Assembly (NCBI GenBank): GCA_913042205.1
Contig: CAJWIY010000012.1
Coordinates: forward strand, 1-40,897
Length of the DNA: 40,897 nt
Source of the DNA: an uncultured Gammaproteobacteria bacterium
GTDB taxonomy: Bacteria > Pseudomonadota > Gammaproteobacteria > Pseudomonadales > Litorivicinaceae
Direction: 5' to 3'
Shown here in pieces: positions 35,466-40,897 of this stretch (the first letter of the stretch is position 1; each line of letters opens with the position of its first letter). The position numbers and the translations under genes are program-made. The notes beneath the pieces are model-generated. The model was given only the letters and a program-made list of their open reading frames with translations, was not told where the DNA came from and did no database searches.

Positions 35466-36107
35466 ATGTGGTGCGATGCTTTGGACAAATTCTTAGTCTG
35501 CAGACTGTATTTGCTCGGTTTGGGGGCGCTTTTGATTTCAGAGATCGTGTATTCTCATGGCGGTGGCCTAAATGCAGAGGGTTGTCACAATAATCGCAAG
35601 ACAGGTGACTATCATTGTCATCGTGGCAATCCTGCACCTAAGCCCCCTCAAAGACCCAGCTCACGGCCAGGGTCCATAGAAAGATTAGGAACGCTAGAGC
35701 CAGTAATTGCTTATGATCGAGACTTATACGGCTATGAAAGTTATCCAACGTACGCAAAAAGTGGGTTTTATACTGGCCAAAGTTGCGATACCAACATTGA
35801 CCATGTCGTATCATTAAAAGATGCCCATGAGAGTGGTGCAGGCCGCTGGACTTTTGCCGAACGTGGGGCGTTTTCTAATGATCGTCTGAATCATGTCCCA
35901 AGCTGCAAACGTATCAACAGCTCAAAAGGCTCTTCTACACCCAGCGATTTTCTGAGAAAGAGTAGTGATGGGCGTGGTATGGAGTATGAAATCAAGCCAA
36001 AGTGTGCGTACTTAGGGATCTATTATCAGGTCAAGAGAAAGTACCGGCTTTCATTTCAGAATAATGACCCCAGCCTTTTTGTGTCCTGCGGCTTGGAGAT
36101 TGATTAG
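35466..36107 (+). CDS. secreted YHYH-HNH-type nuclease
   Basis: 213 residues. A hydrophobic N-terminus suggests export. A YHYH-type repeat follows (SHGGGLNAEGCHNNRKTGDYHCHRG), with its characteristic cysteines and histidines, then a proline-rich linker. The C-terminal half carries IDHVVSLKDAHESGAGRW, FSNDRLNHVPSCKRINSSKG and TPSDF, the HNH-like DUF1524 nuclease pattern with the catalytic D-H pair. Likely degrades extracellular DNA. It begins two bases after the dioxygenase gene. Confidence 0.8.
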   Translation: MWCDALDKFLVCRLYLLGLGALLISEIVYSHGGGLNAEGCHNNRKTGDYHCHRGNPAPKPPQRPSSRPGSIERLGTLEPVIAYDRDLYGYESYPTYAKSGFYTGQSCDTNIDHVVSLKDAHESGAGRWTFAERGAFSNDRLNHVPSCKRINSSKGSSTPSDFLRKSSDGRGMEYEIKPKCAYLGIYYQVKRKYRLSFQNNDPSLFVSCGLEID

Positions 36108-36160: not shown

Positions 36161-36313
36161 ATGCCTCGCATTATTCATACAACTCTCGATTTGATAGCTG
36201 AATTCATGGTTCAGTCAGGCAATGAATTACCGACGCCTACTGCGGTTGGAAGCGTGGACCCGATGCTTCCGTACAAACGCCTAGTCAAAAGGGGTATTCA
36301 TCAGCTGTGTTAG
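36161..36313 (+). CDS. possible small ORF at the left edge of the island
   Basis: An open frame of 50 residues from an ATG with AAGG a few bases upstream; the product starts MPRIIHTTLDLIAEFMVQSG and ends in a basic KRLVKRGIHQLC. It overlaps the end of the polymerase-like gene on the other strand by four bases. I recognise no family, and it may be a chance frame. Confidence 0.3.
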   Translation: MPRIIHTTLDLIAEFMVQSGNELPTPTAVGSVDPMLPYKRLVKRGIHQLC

Positions 36314-37551
36314 CCCGCGAATGATTTTGCACTGGGGTGGAATGGATGCATCACATGTTGCCAGGCGTCTTCCATGGCAGTCTTGGCAAGCTCGTAGTTT
36401 TTCTCAGGGACAGCAATCGCGTCATGAATTGGCAGAGCAAAGACATCGAGGAGTCGCAGTTGCCTCATCGCAACCTGCAAGATTTCGCTCTCCAGCTGCG
36501 TCCCAACAAGCCCAAAAGGTTGCTTACCACTAAACAGCTGTACTTTGGGATACAGTCGTTCAAATGCCTCCATAATGCGCCTGCCGAATGTGTCTGGAAC
36601 TTTTGCTCCTGACCGGGCCCTCTCATATGACTCACAATGTAAAGCGGCAGTGAAGAAGGATTTAACGGTCGTACGATCGACTTTAGCGAGGTTGGCAATT
36701 TCCCGATAAGCGTCGGTTCCATCACCGTAGACATCTAGCTTGTTAAAGGCCAGGAAAAGCCGGAGGTCATTGGCGTTGAAGTCGACTTCTTTAATTGGTT
36801 CATCGTTGATGAGAGTATTCTGCCGTATTTTGTGAGTGCGAGCGGGGAGGTTTTGAAACTCTGTGTAAAGGCGGCCAGACGTAAAAGGATCATACTTAAA
36901 GATGCGGGTGATGGCCTCTTTACAAGCCCATTTCTGTACCCTTGCATACTCGTTGATCTCGGCCACTTTGTGATAGTTGTCAACTTTGGTGAGATCTGCC
37001 TTTCCCCAGCCTCGAGTTGGCGTATTTATTCTGATCAAAACTTTTTCGAAAGAAGCGTCAGAAGTCGCATCGAGTCCATACCGGAATAATTTTTCCCTGA
37101 GTTCACGGTTTGGGTAGTAAAGGTTTCCATGGGGGTTATCCTGATACTTTGCCCCATCAATTTTTGTAACAGTATCTGAGGCTACCAGCGCGTCCAAGAT
37201 TTTTGAGGTACGGGCTCGACTGTCAAGCCCTGCGGAGTGCATTAGGCCTCCCTTGGAGTAGGCCTTAGGATCATCAACAAAGATTGTCCAACGCTTCGTA
37301 ACTATGCTTCTTGATAAATTGAGCAGAATATTAGCTAGATGTCTTCGATGGGATTCTGCGTATCTGGCTTGGCTTGGAGCACAAATATCTCTGCCTATCT
37401 CGTCTACTAGTTTGTCGAAATGATTTGATTGGATCGCTAGCTCACCTGGGAATCTCTGACGATCGTCGGTGTCTGGAGCGTAGATGTCTTCGACGGCCTT
37501 GGCTATTTCAGTGTCTAGTTGAGATGTTATCGGCATAGCGGTCGGTGACAT
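36310..37551 (-). CDS. compact A-family DNA polymerase-like protein without exonuclease domains
   Basis: 413 residues; no hit in my memory by name, but the C-terminal half follows the Pol I order. SGRLYTEFQNLPARTHKIRQ (225-244) corresponds to the GRL...QNIPxR...IRQ stretch. Motif A is VDFNANDLRLF with Asp257 in the place of Asp705. Motif B is RTTVKSFFTAALHC with Arg293 and Lys297 at the RxxxK spacing of Arg754 and Lys758. GTQLESEIL precedes motif C IHDAI, with His376 and Asp377 matching His881 and Asp882. Differences are Asp262 for Glu710, Thr301 for Phe762, His305 for Tyr766 and Ala378 for Glu883. The N-terminal 200 residues are of unknown type and contain no visible 5'-3' or 3'-5' exonuclease motifs. 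Confidence 0.65.
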   Translation of the reverse strand: MSPTAMPITSQLDTEIAKAVEDIYAPDTDDRQRFPGELAIQSNHFDKLVDEIGRDICAPSQARYAESHRRHLANILLNLSRSIVTKRWTIFVDDPKAYSKGGLMHSAGLDSRARTSKILDALVASDTVTKIDGAKYQDNPHGNLYYPNRELREKLFRYGLDATSDASFEKVLIRINTPTRGWGKADLTKVDNYHKVAEINEYARVQKWACKEAITRIFKYDPFTSGRLYTEFQNLPARTHKIRQNTLINDEPIKEVDFNANDLRLFLAFNKLDVYGDGTDAYREIANLAKVDRTTVKSFFTAALHCESYERARSGAKVPDTFGRRIMEAFERLYPKVQLFSGKQPFGLVGTQLESEILQVAMRQLRLLDVFALPIHDAIAVPEKNYELAKTAMEDAWQHVMHPFHPSAKSFAG

Positions 37552-37873: not shown

Positions 37874-38227
37874 TTAGTTGCGTTTGTCGGTTGCCTCTAA
37901 ATAAGACTCAACTAAATGGCAACACCAAGTATGAGTGAGCCCGCGATTCGATTGCCAAAGCTGAATACCTAAAAAGGCAACGTAAGCACCACCCATTAAT
38001 TTTAAAATCACAAATATTTCAGGATACGCCAGCATGATGGTGGCAGCACCAGCAAGCATTGCCAGAGCGACTACAGCAACGCCGACAAGCCGGCCAGCTA
38101 CTATTTATAAGGTCCCGTGGAACCCTATAGTCATGCTTAGAGACAGCGCCAAAGTCATGCATGAACCTGGGGCGGTGGATACAAAAAATGTTGGCATGAA
38201 TAGACCTAATAAGCTTAATTTACTCAA
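37874..38227 (-). pseudogene. LysE/RhtB-family exporter remnant
   Basis: Reading from a TTG at 38227, the frame gives LSLLGLFMPTFFVSTAPGSC, then MTLALSLSMTIGFHGTL, an in-frame TAA at 38105-38107, and then VAGRLVGVAVVALAMLAG and AYPEIFVILKLMGGAYVAFL followed by GIQLWQSN. This is the first third of a LysE-type exporter in its usual order. After about 37950 similarity stops and an unrelated tail is read to a stop at 37874, so the rest of the gene is lost. The gene is therefore broken by both a stop and a truncation, consistent with an island insertion or decay. Confidence 0.75.
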
Positions 38228-38281: not shown

Positions 38282-38355
38282 TTGTAGGTAAAACAATGGG
38301 TAGAACATATTCAGCTGTTGCATACACCTATCTCAAACGTGGTGTGTATTACTTT
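38282..38355 (+). repeat. left arm of a 74-bp inverted repeat (5' end of the lyase gene)
   Basis: This segment, from TTGTAGGTA through the ATG at 38296 to codon 20, is identical at 71 of 74 positions to the reverse complement of 40709-40782. The three differences lie upstream of the ATG (A/C), in codon 5 and in codon 9. The match stops exactly at a codon boundary (38355). It includes the probable translation start and leader of both genes, suggesting that the lyase gene acquired the integrase 5' end or the reverse. Confidence 0.9.
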
Positions 38356-39603
38356 TTGGTTGCGGCTTTAATTACTGTGGGTTTGAGTGGATGCCAAACT
38401 ATCACGCCAAAATCAAACGGATTGGCTGAGAACGAATTCACAGAGTTTCTCAAGGCAAGTACGCCATCATCGACCGATAAGCCTTTAATTGATAAATTGC
38501 CACGACCCGGAAAAGTATCAGTAAACGCTACATCACGAATAAACTATGTAGATGGAAAAAACATTTGTGTCTCACAGGACTTTGATCGTCCGGTAACCGT
38601 TTTGGCTGATGTTTCAGCACCTGAAGGCTATGGATTAGATGATCGTTTTAATACAGTCTCTGATCAGTTCAAACGCTTATCTGAACGCTGTCTAGCCGGC
38701 TCACAGATTAGCTGTAGAACAATTCAAATCTCCTCTATTAAATGGGCAAAAGAATCAAAGCTTGAGAAGCCGAGATCTACCGAAGGGGGTGTTTGGAACG
38801 ATACGCTAACAATCAATATGCGGTTACTGTCGCCAATGCTGGCCGCTTTGGGTGTAGCGGAAGAGTTTTCTCCGATGCCTGAAGATGAGCGTTCAATCGT
38901 AATTCCATGGTTAGTGAAAATTACAGATAATTTTGAGCATGGAATGCGCCATGAGGGGTCATATGGGGGTGGTACCGCCGGAACTACCGCAAGGCGAGCA
39001 GCGCATAATCATGCTGTTCAGTCGTCTAATGCACAAATGTCTCTTGGTTCTTTCATTGGTGAAAGTGAGCGGTTTAATGTCGGAATTAATCAGTGGTTTA
39101 TTACGCTTGCCTCTATGAGAGGTGATGGGAGTTTGCCAATTGAGACACGAAGAGGAGCTAGGGCGCTCTTTTATCAAGGACGCACCATCACAGCGCTATC
39201 CTCGTTGGCGGAAAAAGCGAAGGTTCAAGGTGTGGATCTTTGGAATACCGCACCCAATGAAACACAAACTATTCACTTGGCGGTGAAATTTTTAATAGAT
39301 GCGATAGAAAATCCGAATCTCGTTCTACGCTATGCATCAACAAATCATGCTCCGGGACCTTCTAAAAATTATAAGAGGCAAGATATCGGTACAGGATCAA
39401 CTTTCGGGTGGGTAGCGCTGTATATGGCAAGGTTTCCAGACCACCCCAACACACGGCGGATGCAAAATAGGGTGGGTTATCCTCAAACCGTGACACACAA
39501 CTATCTTACGTTATCTCTCGACCAACAAATACAAAAGAACGGCACCGGCTCTGGAGATTGGAATTTTGTTAACGGACGATGTTTCTATGCAAAGGTTGAC
39601 TAA
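38296..39603 (+). CDS. alginate-lyase-like lipoprotein with an integrase-derived N-terminus
   Basis: 435 residues. The first 20 residues, MGRTYSAVAYTYLKRGVYYF, nearly match the integrase start encoded by the opposite strand at 40768. The next stretch, LVAALITVGLSGC, is a lipoprotein signal h-region and lipobox with Cys33, so the fused leader still has the basic residues KRG in front of it. The C-terminal half fits polysaccharide lyases of the alginate lyase type: a basic H-N-H set at 237-239 in place of NNH, and GDGSLPIETRRGARALFYQ (276-294), followed by LSSLAEKAKVQGVDLW. The catalytic activity and substrate (mannuronan-like) are inferred only. The 3' end overlaps the integrase gene by 35 bases. 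Confidence 0.65.
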   Translation: MGRTYSAVAYTYLKRGVYYFLVAALITVGLSGCQTITPKSNGLAENEFTEFLKASTPSSTDKPLIDKLPRPGKVSVNATSRINYVDGKNICVSQDFDRPVTVLADVSAPEGYGLDDRFNTVSDQFKRLSERCLAGSQISCRTIQISSIKWAKESKLEKPRSTEGGVWNDTLTINMRLLSPMLAALGVAEEFSPMPEDERSIVIPWLVKITDNFEHGMRHEGSYGGGTAGTTARRAAHNHAVQSSNAQMSLGSFIGESERFNVGINQWFITLASMRGDGSLPIETRRGARALFYQGRTITALSSLAEKAKVQGVDLWNTAPNETQTIHLAVKFLIDAIENPNLVLRYASTNHAPGPSKNYKRQDIGTGSTFGWVALYMARFPDHPNTRRMQNRVGYPQTVTHNYLTLSLDQQIQKNGTGSGDWNFVNGRCFYAKVD

Positions 39604-40768
39604 AACTAAAAAAATCCAGTGACTCCATCGTTTCGCAGGTCGTAAAAAGACTGAAGCCATCGCCGTACTTACTACCTACGGTTTGTGTACTCCATCCACC
39701 TAACTGGTCAATCATGTCAGTCGGAGCATTCAAAGCTCTCAACCTATCCCTGAATGCATGACGCATTCCATGCACAACACATTCTTTAGGTAAAAAGGTC
39801 TTTATCCACTTATTTAAAGCGGCACTTGCTGAGTTCGCATTGGTGGATATCCCATCAACATATTGAGGGAATAAAAACTCCCCTGAAACAGTGTCTGAGA
39901 GCCTCTGAGAAGCCCACAGAGCGGCTCCAACTAACGGGATGATTCGTTCGCTTCCTGATGTTTTTAATGGCCTCCATGGATGTTTCCTGATGACCACGTG
40001 TGGGACCTCATCAGTGAGCTTTAGATCATCTTTTGATGGTCCAACGGCTTCTGCCAATCGCATTCCAGTATCACTGATGAGTGCAGCTAACCATCGTAGT
40101 GAATCATCTTGTTCTCTGCATCGCTGTTGCAGCAGTTTGATTTGATCAATGGTCAGTGAGTAACGCTTGGTATGATTCTCATCAGAGGGGATGTAGACCT
40201 TGGCAAATGGATTATTAATTCCTAATCCTTCTTCTTGGATACAGAGATTCACCACGGCTTTAACAATGGTGAGATTGCGGGATACAGATGATCGTTTCAG
40301 ACCCTTTGCGAACAACCAATCTCTGAATTCACCGGCATCAATGGTTGTGTATTCGCCTAAGTCATTATTCCCCAAACATTCGATTGCGTACCCAACTGCA
40401 CGATCTGTGTGGGTAAAGAACAATTTTCCACGACCTCTGCCTTTAGTTCGTTTGTACACATCACATGCATGACTCAATGTGGAACCTAGCGTGACCGTAA
40501 TTCCATGTGTTTGTAATGAGGGATCCTTTAACAAATGACTACCCGGTACTTCTGTCCGTTTTAGGCGCAGATCAAGCCAATAATCATCCAGACGTAAGGA
40601 CAGCCTCTCTGATGCACGAGAGGCTCTGTGCAGGGACTTTGTCCGCAGACTCAAGATGAGACGATCGGTGCGATAGAACGTCTGTAAATCGCTAGGAATA
40701 CGTCTCACAAAGTAATACACACCACGTTTGAGATAGGTGTATGGAACAGCTGAAAATGTTCTACCCAT
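39569..40768 (-). CDS. tyrosine recombinase/integrase
   Basis: 399 residues from the ATG at 40768 (the open frame reaches 40810). An arm/core-binding N-terminus starts MGRTFSAVPYTYLKRGVYYF, typical of integrases with a short basic YYFVRR segment. The catalytic domain has Arg in SDTGMRLAEAVG, a basic HPWRPLKTSGSERIIP strand, His and Arg in HGMRHAFRDRL, then GGWS and the nucleophile tyrosine in SKYGDGF. It lies about 75 bases from a tRNA-Leu gene, which is the likely target. Its 3' end overlaps the convergent lyase gene. Confidence 0.92.
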   Translation of the reverse strand: MGRTFSAVPYTYLKRGVYYFVRRIPSDLQTFYRTDRLILSLRTKSLHRASRASERLSLRLDDYWLDLRLKRTEVPGSHLLKDPSLQTHGITVTLGSTLSHACDVYKRTKGRGRGKLFFTHTDRAVGYAIECLGNNDLGEYTTIDAGEFRDWLFAKGLKRSSVSRNLTIVKAVVNLCIQEEGLGINNPFAKVYIPSDENHTKRYSLTIDQIKLLQQRCREQDDSLRWLAALISDTGMRLAEAVGPSKDDLKLTDEVPHVVIRKHPWRPLKTSGSERIIPLVGAALWASQRLSDTVSGEFLFPQYVDGISTNANSASAALNKWIKTFLPKECVVHGMRHAFRDRLRALNAPTDMIDQLGGWSTQTVGSKYGDGFSLFTTCETMESLDFFSFSQPLHRNIVR

Positions 40769-40782
40769 TGTTGTACCTACAA
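40709..40782 (-). repeat. right arm of the 74-bp inverted repeat (5' end of the integrase gene)
   Basis: The reverse complement of this segment matches 38282-38355 at 71 of 74 positions and covers the integrase leader plus its first 20 codons. Its 3' boundary, on the integrase strand, is codon 20 (TTT); the next codons diverge (GTG AGA in the integrase, TTG GTT in the lyase). Confidence 0.9.
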
Positions 40783-40818
40783 TACTGCTGGACACGGTAA
40801 GTGCAGGCATATCAATGA

Positions 40819-40835
40819 GTTACATGCAAAGAAGT
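40819..40835 (-). repeat. right copy of the 17-base outer inverted repeat
   Basis: The reverse complement reads ACTTCTTTGCATGTAAC and matches 37852-37868 at 15 of 17 bases. It lies between the integrase start and the tRNA 3' end, where an integrase binding site would be expected. Confidence 0.3.
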
Positions 40836-40843
40836 GATGATTG

Positions 40844-40897
40844 TGGTGCCGGTGGCCAGACTCGAACTGGCACGAGGTTTCCCTCTCCGGATTTTAA
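40844..40897 (-). tRNA. tRNA-Leu, probable UAA anticodon (3' part only)
   Basis: The reverse complement ends in ACCGGCACCA with an encoded CCA and contains a five-pair T stem (GCCAG, loop TTCGAGT, CTGGC). A long variable arm (GAGGGAAACCTC) is present, so it is a class II tRNA. The visible end of the anticodon arm reads TTAAAATCC, which fits U33 followed by TAA. The 5' half is cut off by the window. The integrase gene lies beside its 3' end. Confidence 0.9.

Follow-up and report, generated by a model that had tools for sequence, protein, structure and literature searches.

Why do a tyrosine integrase gene and an alginate-lyase-family gene that face each other begin with the same sequence? The window, by which we mean the whole 40,897-nucleotide stretch analyzed, makes up contig C12 of a metagenome bin, an assembly that totals 2.0 Mb and comprises 93 contigs. 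An earlier note on this DNA had described convergent genes that overlap by 35 bases and share a 71/74 inverted repeat across their leaders and first 20 codons, and our analysis reproduced each of these features. Taken to 77 bp (38282-38358 versus 40706-40782), the arms agree at 73 positions and differ at four, with a longest exact run of 35 bp, a spacing of 2347 nt and an arm-against-arm blastn E value of ~3e-30; no other strong repeat is found within the window. Each arm spans 14 bp of leader and 20 codons of its gene, reading MGRT[Y/F]SAV[A/P]YTYLKRGVYYF, and the note was also right that recombination between the arms would leave both genes in frame. We propose that small islets seated at tRNA genes make up a family whose cis-acting left end is probably the shared unit, and that two of these ends face each other in the window.

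The inverted repeat and its setting

The features on which the argument rests are the following.

36310..37551, minus strand: gene for a 413-aa protein, within the flank right of tRNA-Phe; in G007 and G011 the orthologues are found on the far side of tRNA-Phe islets
37946..38227, minus strand: decayed LysE-like gene (assigned by eye), in the tRNA-Phe right flank in relatives; homology begins at most ~6 bp from copy 2
38282..38358, plus strand: 77-bp end unit, copy 2, inverted and in frame with the lyase; it lacks the outer ~90 bp that a left end usually has
38296..39603, plus strand: alginate-lyase-family gene (PF05426) whose reading frame starts in the end unit, as an in-frame fusion
38322..38349, plus strand: 28-bp imperfect dyad ATACACCTATCTCAAACGTGGTGTGTAT in copy 2, common to A- and B-type leaders
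39569..40768, minus strand: tyrosine integrase (DUF6538 and Phage_integrase, by domain matches), its body under purifying selection
40706..40782, minus strand: 77-bp end unit, copy 1 (14 bp of integrase leader, ATG, first 20-21 codons), the most conserved 77-bp stretch of the islet
40715..40742, minus strand: the same 28-bp dyad in copy 1, from the sequence
40783..40843, minus strand: outer part of the islet left end, from the tRNA 3' end to the 77-bp unit; recurs behind tRNA-Leu(UAA), tRNA-Leu(CAG) and tRNA-Phe
40844..40897, minus strand: 3' part of tRNA-Leu(UAA), the attL side, from the overlap with contig C86

The integrase is read from the ATG at 40768; another ATG upstream would move its start to 40810. 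The lyase also resembles alginate lyase A1-III (E 1.8e-12). Copy 1 contains the dyads TTGT-AGGT-ACAA, GAACA-N8-TGTTC and ATACAC-N16-GTGTAT, and the 28-bp dyad present in both arms is a candidate core or Int-binding site. A weak inverted repeat deeper in the two genes (38922-38953 and 39757-39788; 32 nt, 78%), where lyase and integrase both encode HGMRH, is probably due to chance.

Copy 1 lies beside a tRNA gene that the contig cuts through. As the contig stops within this gene, ARAGORN reported no tRNA for the window, and the gene was read from contig C86 (L066): positions 40843-40897 form a 55-bp overlap with that contig, which carries uvrC-pgsA-tRNA-Leu. The branch in the 55-mers falls one base beyond the tRNA-Leu CCA, which hints at other sequences behind this tRNA as well in the sampled population. 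On the side of copy 2, the window below ~38276 matches the chromosome to the right of tRNA-Phe in G007, G011 and G016. The contig thus links the tRNA-Leu side with the flank found right of tRNA-Phe. Two islet sites must therefore have taken part in a rearrangement, which means that islets of this family do rearrange. Neither mutY, which marks the tRNA-Phe left flank, nor the F21 gene, both sought to link the tRNA-Leu right flank of this genome with its tRNA-Phe left flank, was found in the bin. The right end and attR tRNA fragment typical of the family are likewise absent from the window. The window copy has thus lost an attR that the family has, and may for this reason be immobile or stranded.

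The 413-aa protein has no counterpart in Pfam or PDB; it matches phrog_4756, whose function is unknown, at E 3.8e-19 and contains the motifs VDFNANDLR and LPIHDAIAV, which look polymerase-like by eye only. Adjoining the tRNA-Phe right flank, 35466-36107 encodes a 213-aa secreted-looking protein with a GmrSD_C (HNH-type) match that is kept in G007 and G016. Elsewhere, an islet in G003 (L068, 1-2103) has tRNA-Leu(CAG) on one side and, at the start of the contig, a tRNA-Phe 3' end on the other; the two tRNAs face each other, which we take as another sign of rearrangement between tRNA sites.

Could the arrangement be an assembly chimera? The bin is fragmented, C12 ends at a 55-bp k-mer overlap and the window joins two tRNA neighborhoods, all of which might be expected of a false join. 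However, the arms share at most 35 identical bp, less than a 55-mer, the contig is continuous across both, and the same layout occurs in G017 and, with another leader, in G021. We regard a chimera as very improbable.

A dispersed unit at tRNA genes

Is the repeat a private feature of this locus? Searching 58 genomes by the leader, a procedure biased against fragments shorter than ~60 bp so that very short remnants would be missed, we found 19 copies of the 77-bp unit beyond the two in the window. They were spread over 11 of the 21 congeneric (Litoricola/Litorivicinus) genomes, and the 36 genomes from outside the genus had none. Several copies come from records that carry no metagenome-bin label (AG-900-B21, AG-905-C17, AH-657-M20). 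Most lie directly behind tRNA-Leu(UAA), tRNA-Leu(CAG) or tRNA-Phe(GAA), the tRNA CCA being separated from the unit by a conserved outer part, and most are not in inverted pairs. Codons 2-9 occur in two versions, A (GRTFSAVP) and B (SAQIDAPK), and both are followed by the 28-bp dyad and TACTTTGTG. Past TACTTTGTG, some copies run into an integrase and others into cargo: DUF1330 (four genomes), DUF218 (two copies in G014), YHYH, a guanylate cyclase, a PQQ-like protein, a second PF05426 ORF and unidentified sequence. Longer stretches of integrase persist as remnants in G003, G018 and G019. Neither the unit nor the integrase matched any of 2.9 million viral contigs, and a phage origin was rejected on this ground.

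The islets have a second end as well. At this right end they have in common a block that finishes with GCAGGTAATCATTG...CACTTC; behind it come ~15 bp of tRNA 3' end, and this attR repeat is present in the relatives L047, L048, L032 and L081. One end of an islet abuts a tRNA 3' end, and some members encode a tyrosine integrase in an intact frame. A clean two-kilobase islet in G018 (L036) consists of unit, guanylate cyclase, right end and tRNA-Leu 3' repeat, and is an example of an integrase-less member with the same ends as integrase islets. In G017, a right end, an att site and a left end follow one another (L032, 7584-7688), as they would in a circle or a tandem array, although this junction is not proof of either. 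The DUF1330 islet occupies tRNA-Leu in G018 and G004 but tRNA-Phe in G007 and G016, and the F25-F27 islet occupies tRNA-Phe in G018 but tRNA-Leu(CAG) in G003. These placements indicate that islets move between tRNA sites. The distribution of the unit, its junctions, its conservation and the mobility of cargo between tRNA sites are all apparent from sequence comparison.

The unit is conserved beyond what its coding role explains. Across four species (the window, G021, G019 and G003), the longest invariant stretch near the integrase start measures 76 bp, and its first base coincides with the outer edge of the repeat. Among the integrases of G000, G017 and G021, dS is 0.06-0.19 in codons 1-25 versus 0.42-0.55 in codons 26-360, with a body dN of ~0.05, so the unit evolves more slowly than its translation would require. 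It may be under DNA-level constraint, or it may often be exchanged. The tRNA-Phe islets of G007 and G016 are orthologues with 89% identity across 5 kb, yet one carries version A and the other version B. The difference in this 23-bp patch between otherwise collinear islets indicates that exchange among unit copies does occur, and the conservation of the unit could thus also stem from such exchange.

It is conceivable that the copies are leftover integrase 5' ends at tRNA genes into which unrelated genes have drifted, with the repeat as chance debris and the in-frame lyase as an accident. Copies in G004, G011, G018 and G019 are frameshifted or lack a start, and the window copy has neither its outer end nor attR. 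Since some copies without an integrase have lost either the ATG or the frame, decay must be part of the pattern. As a full account, however, decay sits poorly with the clustered junctions, the 76-bp invariant unit, the clean islet of L036 and the two in-frame signal-peptide fusions described below, and we consider it unlikely. The earlier note had offered, as the simpler alternative, a one-time duplication of the integrase 5' end that captured the lyase gene; this came nearer the truth, except that the event was not a single one, the same end being joined to at least seven other sequences within the genus.

Cargo fusions and a probable pair of opposed islet ends

The note had recommended a search for other genes fused to the leader, and there are such genes: a second PF05426 ORF in G017 and other cargo across the genus. 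The layout in G017 is that of the window: tRNA-Leu, unit, integrase and a convergent 427-aa PF05426 ORF in frame with a B-type unit. Apart from the leader, this protein does not clearly resemble the window lyase. The latter occurs in no other congener, and a search for its donor in 392 genomes of the order gave no close homologue, only partial matches of 24-30%. A further facing arrangement exists in G021, where an integrase opposes F24, a gene that follows the first ~60 codons of another DUF6538 integrase. The TTG start of F24 overlaps the stop of this remnant (L067, 9100-9700), which raises the question of translational coupling, and a 600-bp stretch with the G021 leader and F24 is 98% identical in G019.

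What does the leader contribute to the lyases? In the window lyase, YLKRGVYYF is followed by LVAALITVGLSGC, a junction that forms a predicted lipoprotein-type signal peptide; in G017, YLKRGVYYF is followed by VMWLVMGIDALESATA. In both fusions the leader supplies K-R and the onset of a hydrophobic stretch that the integrase does not have, with 12-residue hydropathy values of 2.4 and 2.0 versus 0.2. Removal of the leader on export may be the reason that secreted proteins tolerate it.

The fusions invite the idea that the unit is itself a recombination unit, behind which Int (or RecA) exchanges sequence while start and signal n-region stay fixed, somewhat in the manner of an integron cassette. 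Consistent with this idea, the change to non-integrase sequence is sharp, and for each of the eight cargo types it falls 24-48 bp past the start of the dyad; the copies at window position 38282 and in G014 (L042) are bounded at the same points on both sides; two dissimilar PF05426 proteins have their in-frame junction at an identical position; and the islets of G007 and G016, though orthologous, carry different A/B patches. Against it, the inner junctions vary by ~24 bp, which is loose for a single crossover point, no free cassette was found, and the right ends and tRNA repeats suffice to explain ordinary islet mobility. Nor is there an attC-like fold (DNA fold z-scores 0.3, -0.1 and 0.4); folding does not exceed that of shuffled sequence, and an integron-like fold or RNA structure was rejected. 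We judge this exchange rather unlikely. The more specific proposal that the unit is a recombination site bearing a start codon and half a signal peptide, through which the integrase swaps secreted cargo in frame behind a start linked to a tRNA, as a kind of N-terminal-fusion gene capture, we put forward as an unlikely speculation.

The earlier note had read the locus as an invertible switch. In such a cassette, the integrase would flip the 2.35-kb interior and thereby place either itself or the lyase behind tRNA-Leu, as in a phase switch. Inverted repeats do flank the segment, with identical 35-bp runs and the 28-bp dyad, and as recombination sites they are only candidates. The layout recurs in G017 with a different lyase; moreover, cargo adjoins the tRNA in G007, G016, G004 and G018, in the first two with an integrase C-terminal remnant facing it. 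This topology looks like a flipped state, but the cargo is different and it does not show inversion. Among the relatives searched for flipped versions, no two have the same cargo in opposite orientations. The contig is unbroken through both arms, with one assembled orientation and no alternative junction or arm on other contigs of the bin. Most copies across the genus are unpaired, and the second unit of G017 is continuous with att and right end, as befits an islet end rather than the arm of a switch. The arms have not been homogenized: they differ at 4 of 77 positions, and the arm at 38282 is no closer to its partner than to copies from other species, which argues against frequent flipping. 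Two islet left ends face to face appear likelier than a switch, which is unproven and in our estimate decidedly unlikely.

We therefore return to the islet ends and propose the following model. The 77-bp repeat would be the inner part of the left end of ~2-4 kb tyrosine-integrase islets seated at the 3' ends of tRNA-Leu(UAA), tRNA-Leu(CAG) and tRNA-Phe. The integrase gene would begin inside this end, so that autonomous islets read tRNA-end-integrase, and non-autonomous islets would retain the end with cargo directly behind it. The unit may be kept because the integrase must bind it in cis, as an arm or core site, and one integrase may serve all copies. In the window, an integrase islet at tRNA-Leu would be opposed by a reversed lyase unit, whose end would give the lyase its start codon, n-region and the first part of the h-region of its signal peptide. 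Ends opposed in this way would permit inversion or deletion by Int or RecA.

Significance and comparison with known systems

We know of few routes by which streamlined marine bacteria can swap single metabolic genes. Genus-wide tRNA islets of 2-4 kb that move polysaccharide lyases, cyclases and small enzymes would provide a concrete and testable one, in which the islet end unit would double as a translation start. The start of an integrase can evidently land on unrelated secreted proteins, and this would mislead annotation.

Our literature search found no published account of this Litoricola islet family. In hsdS systems and shufflons, inverted sites inside coding sequence preserve the reading frame. 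Unlike these, the present locus was seen in a single orientation, and its sites are dispersed in the genus and mostly unpaired. For SSV-type archaeal integrases, the recombination region overlaps the integrase gene. Integrases of this type, with attP inside int, are the topic of a review (PMC8371274); unlike theirs, the Litoricola gene stays whole when integrated, and the 77-bp unit may act as an attP arm.

Of the described systems that our literature search brought up, the nearest are the ssrA islands of Dehalococcoides, which have integrase-less members, and the tycheposons. The Dehalococcoides account (PMC3146451) describes ssrA islands and cis-mobilizable elements (CIMEs) in tandem at one RNA gene, marked by a short direct repeat of its 3' end; an integration module is present in some, and others bear nothing but cargo between their att sites. 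As given there, those islands use a serine recombinase and one RNA gene, whereas the Litoricola islets use a tyrosine integrase and three tRNA genes. The Litoricola end also runs 20 codons into the integrase gene, and the passages of that account consulted here make no mention of integrase-less islands that keep an integrase start. Tycheposons are tRNA-bounded cargo elements of marine plankton, reported to be 4-200 kb in size, with a tyrosine recombinase beside the tRNA (PMC10872708). The Litoricola islets likewise combine a tRNA with a tyrosine recombinase; those mapped here are ~2-4 kb long, hold one to a few genes and share an end unit made from the integrase start.
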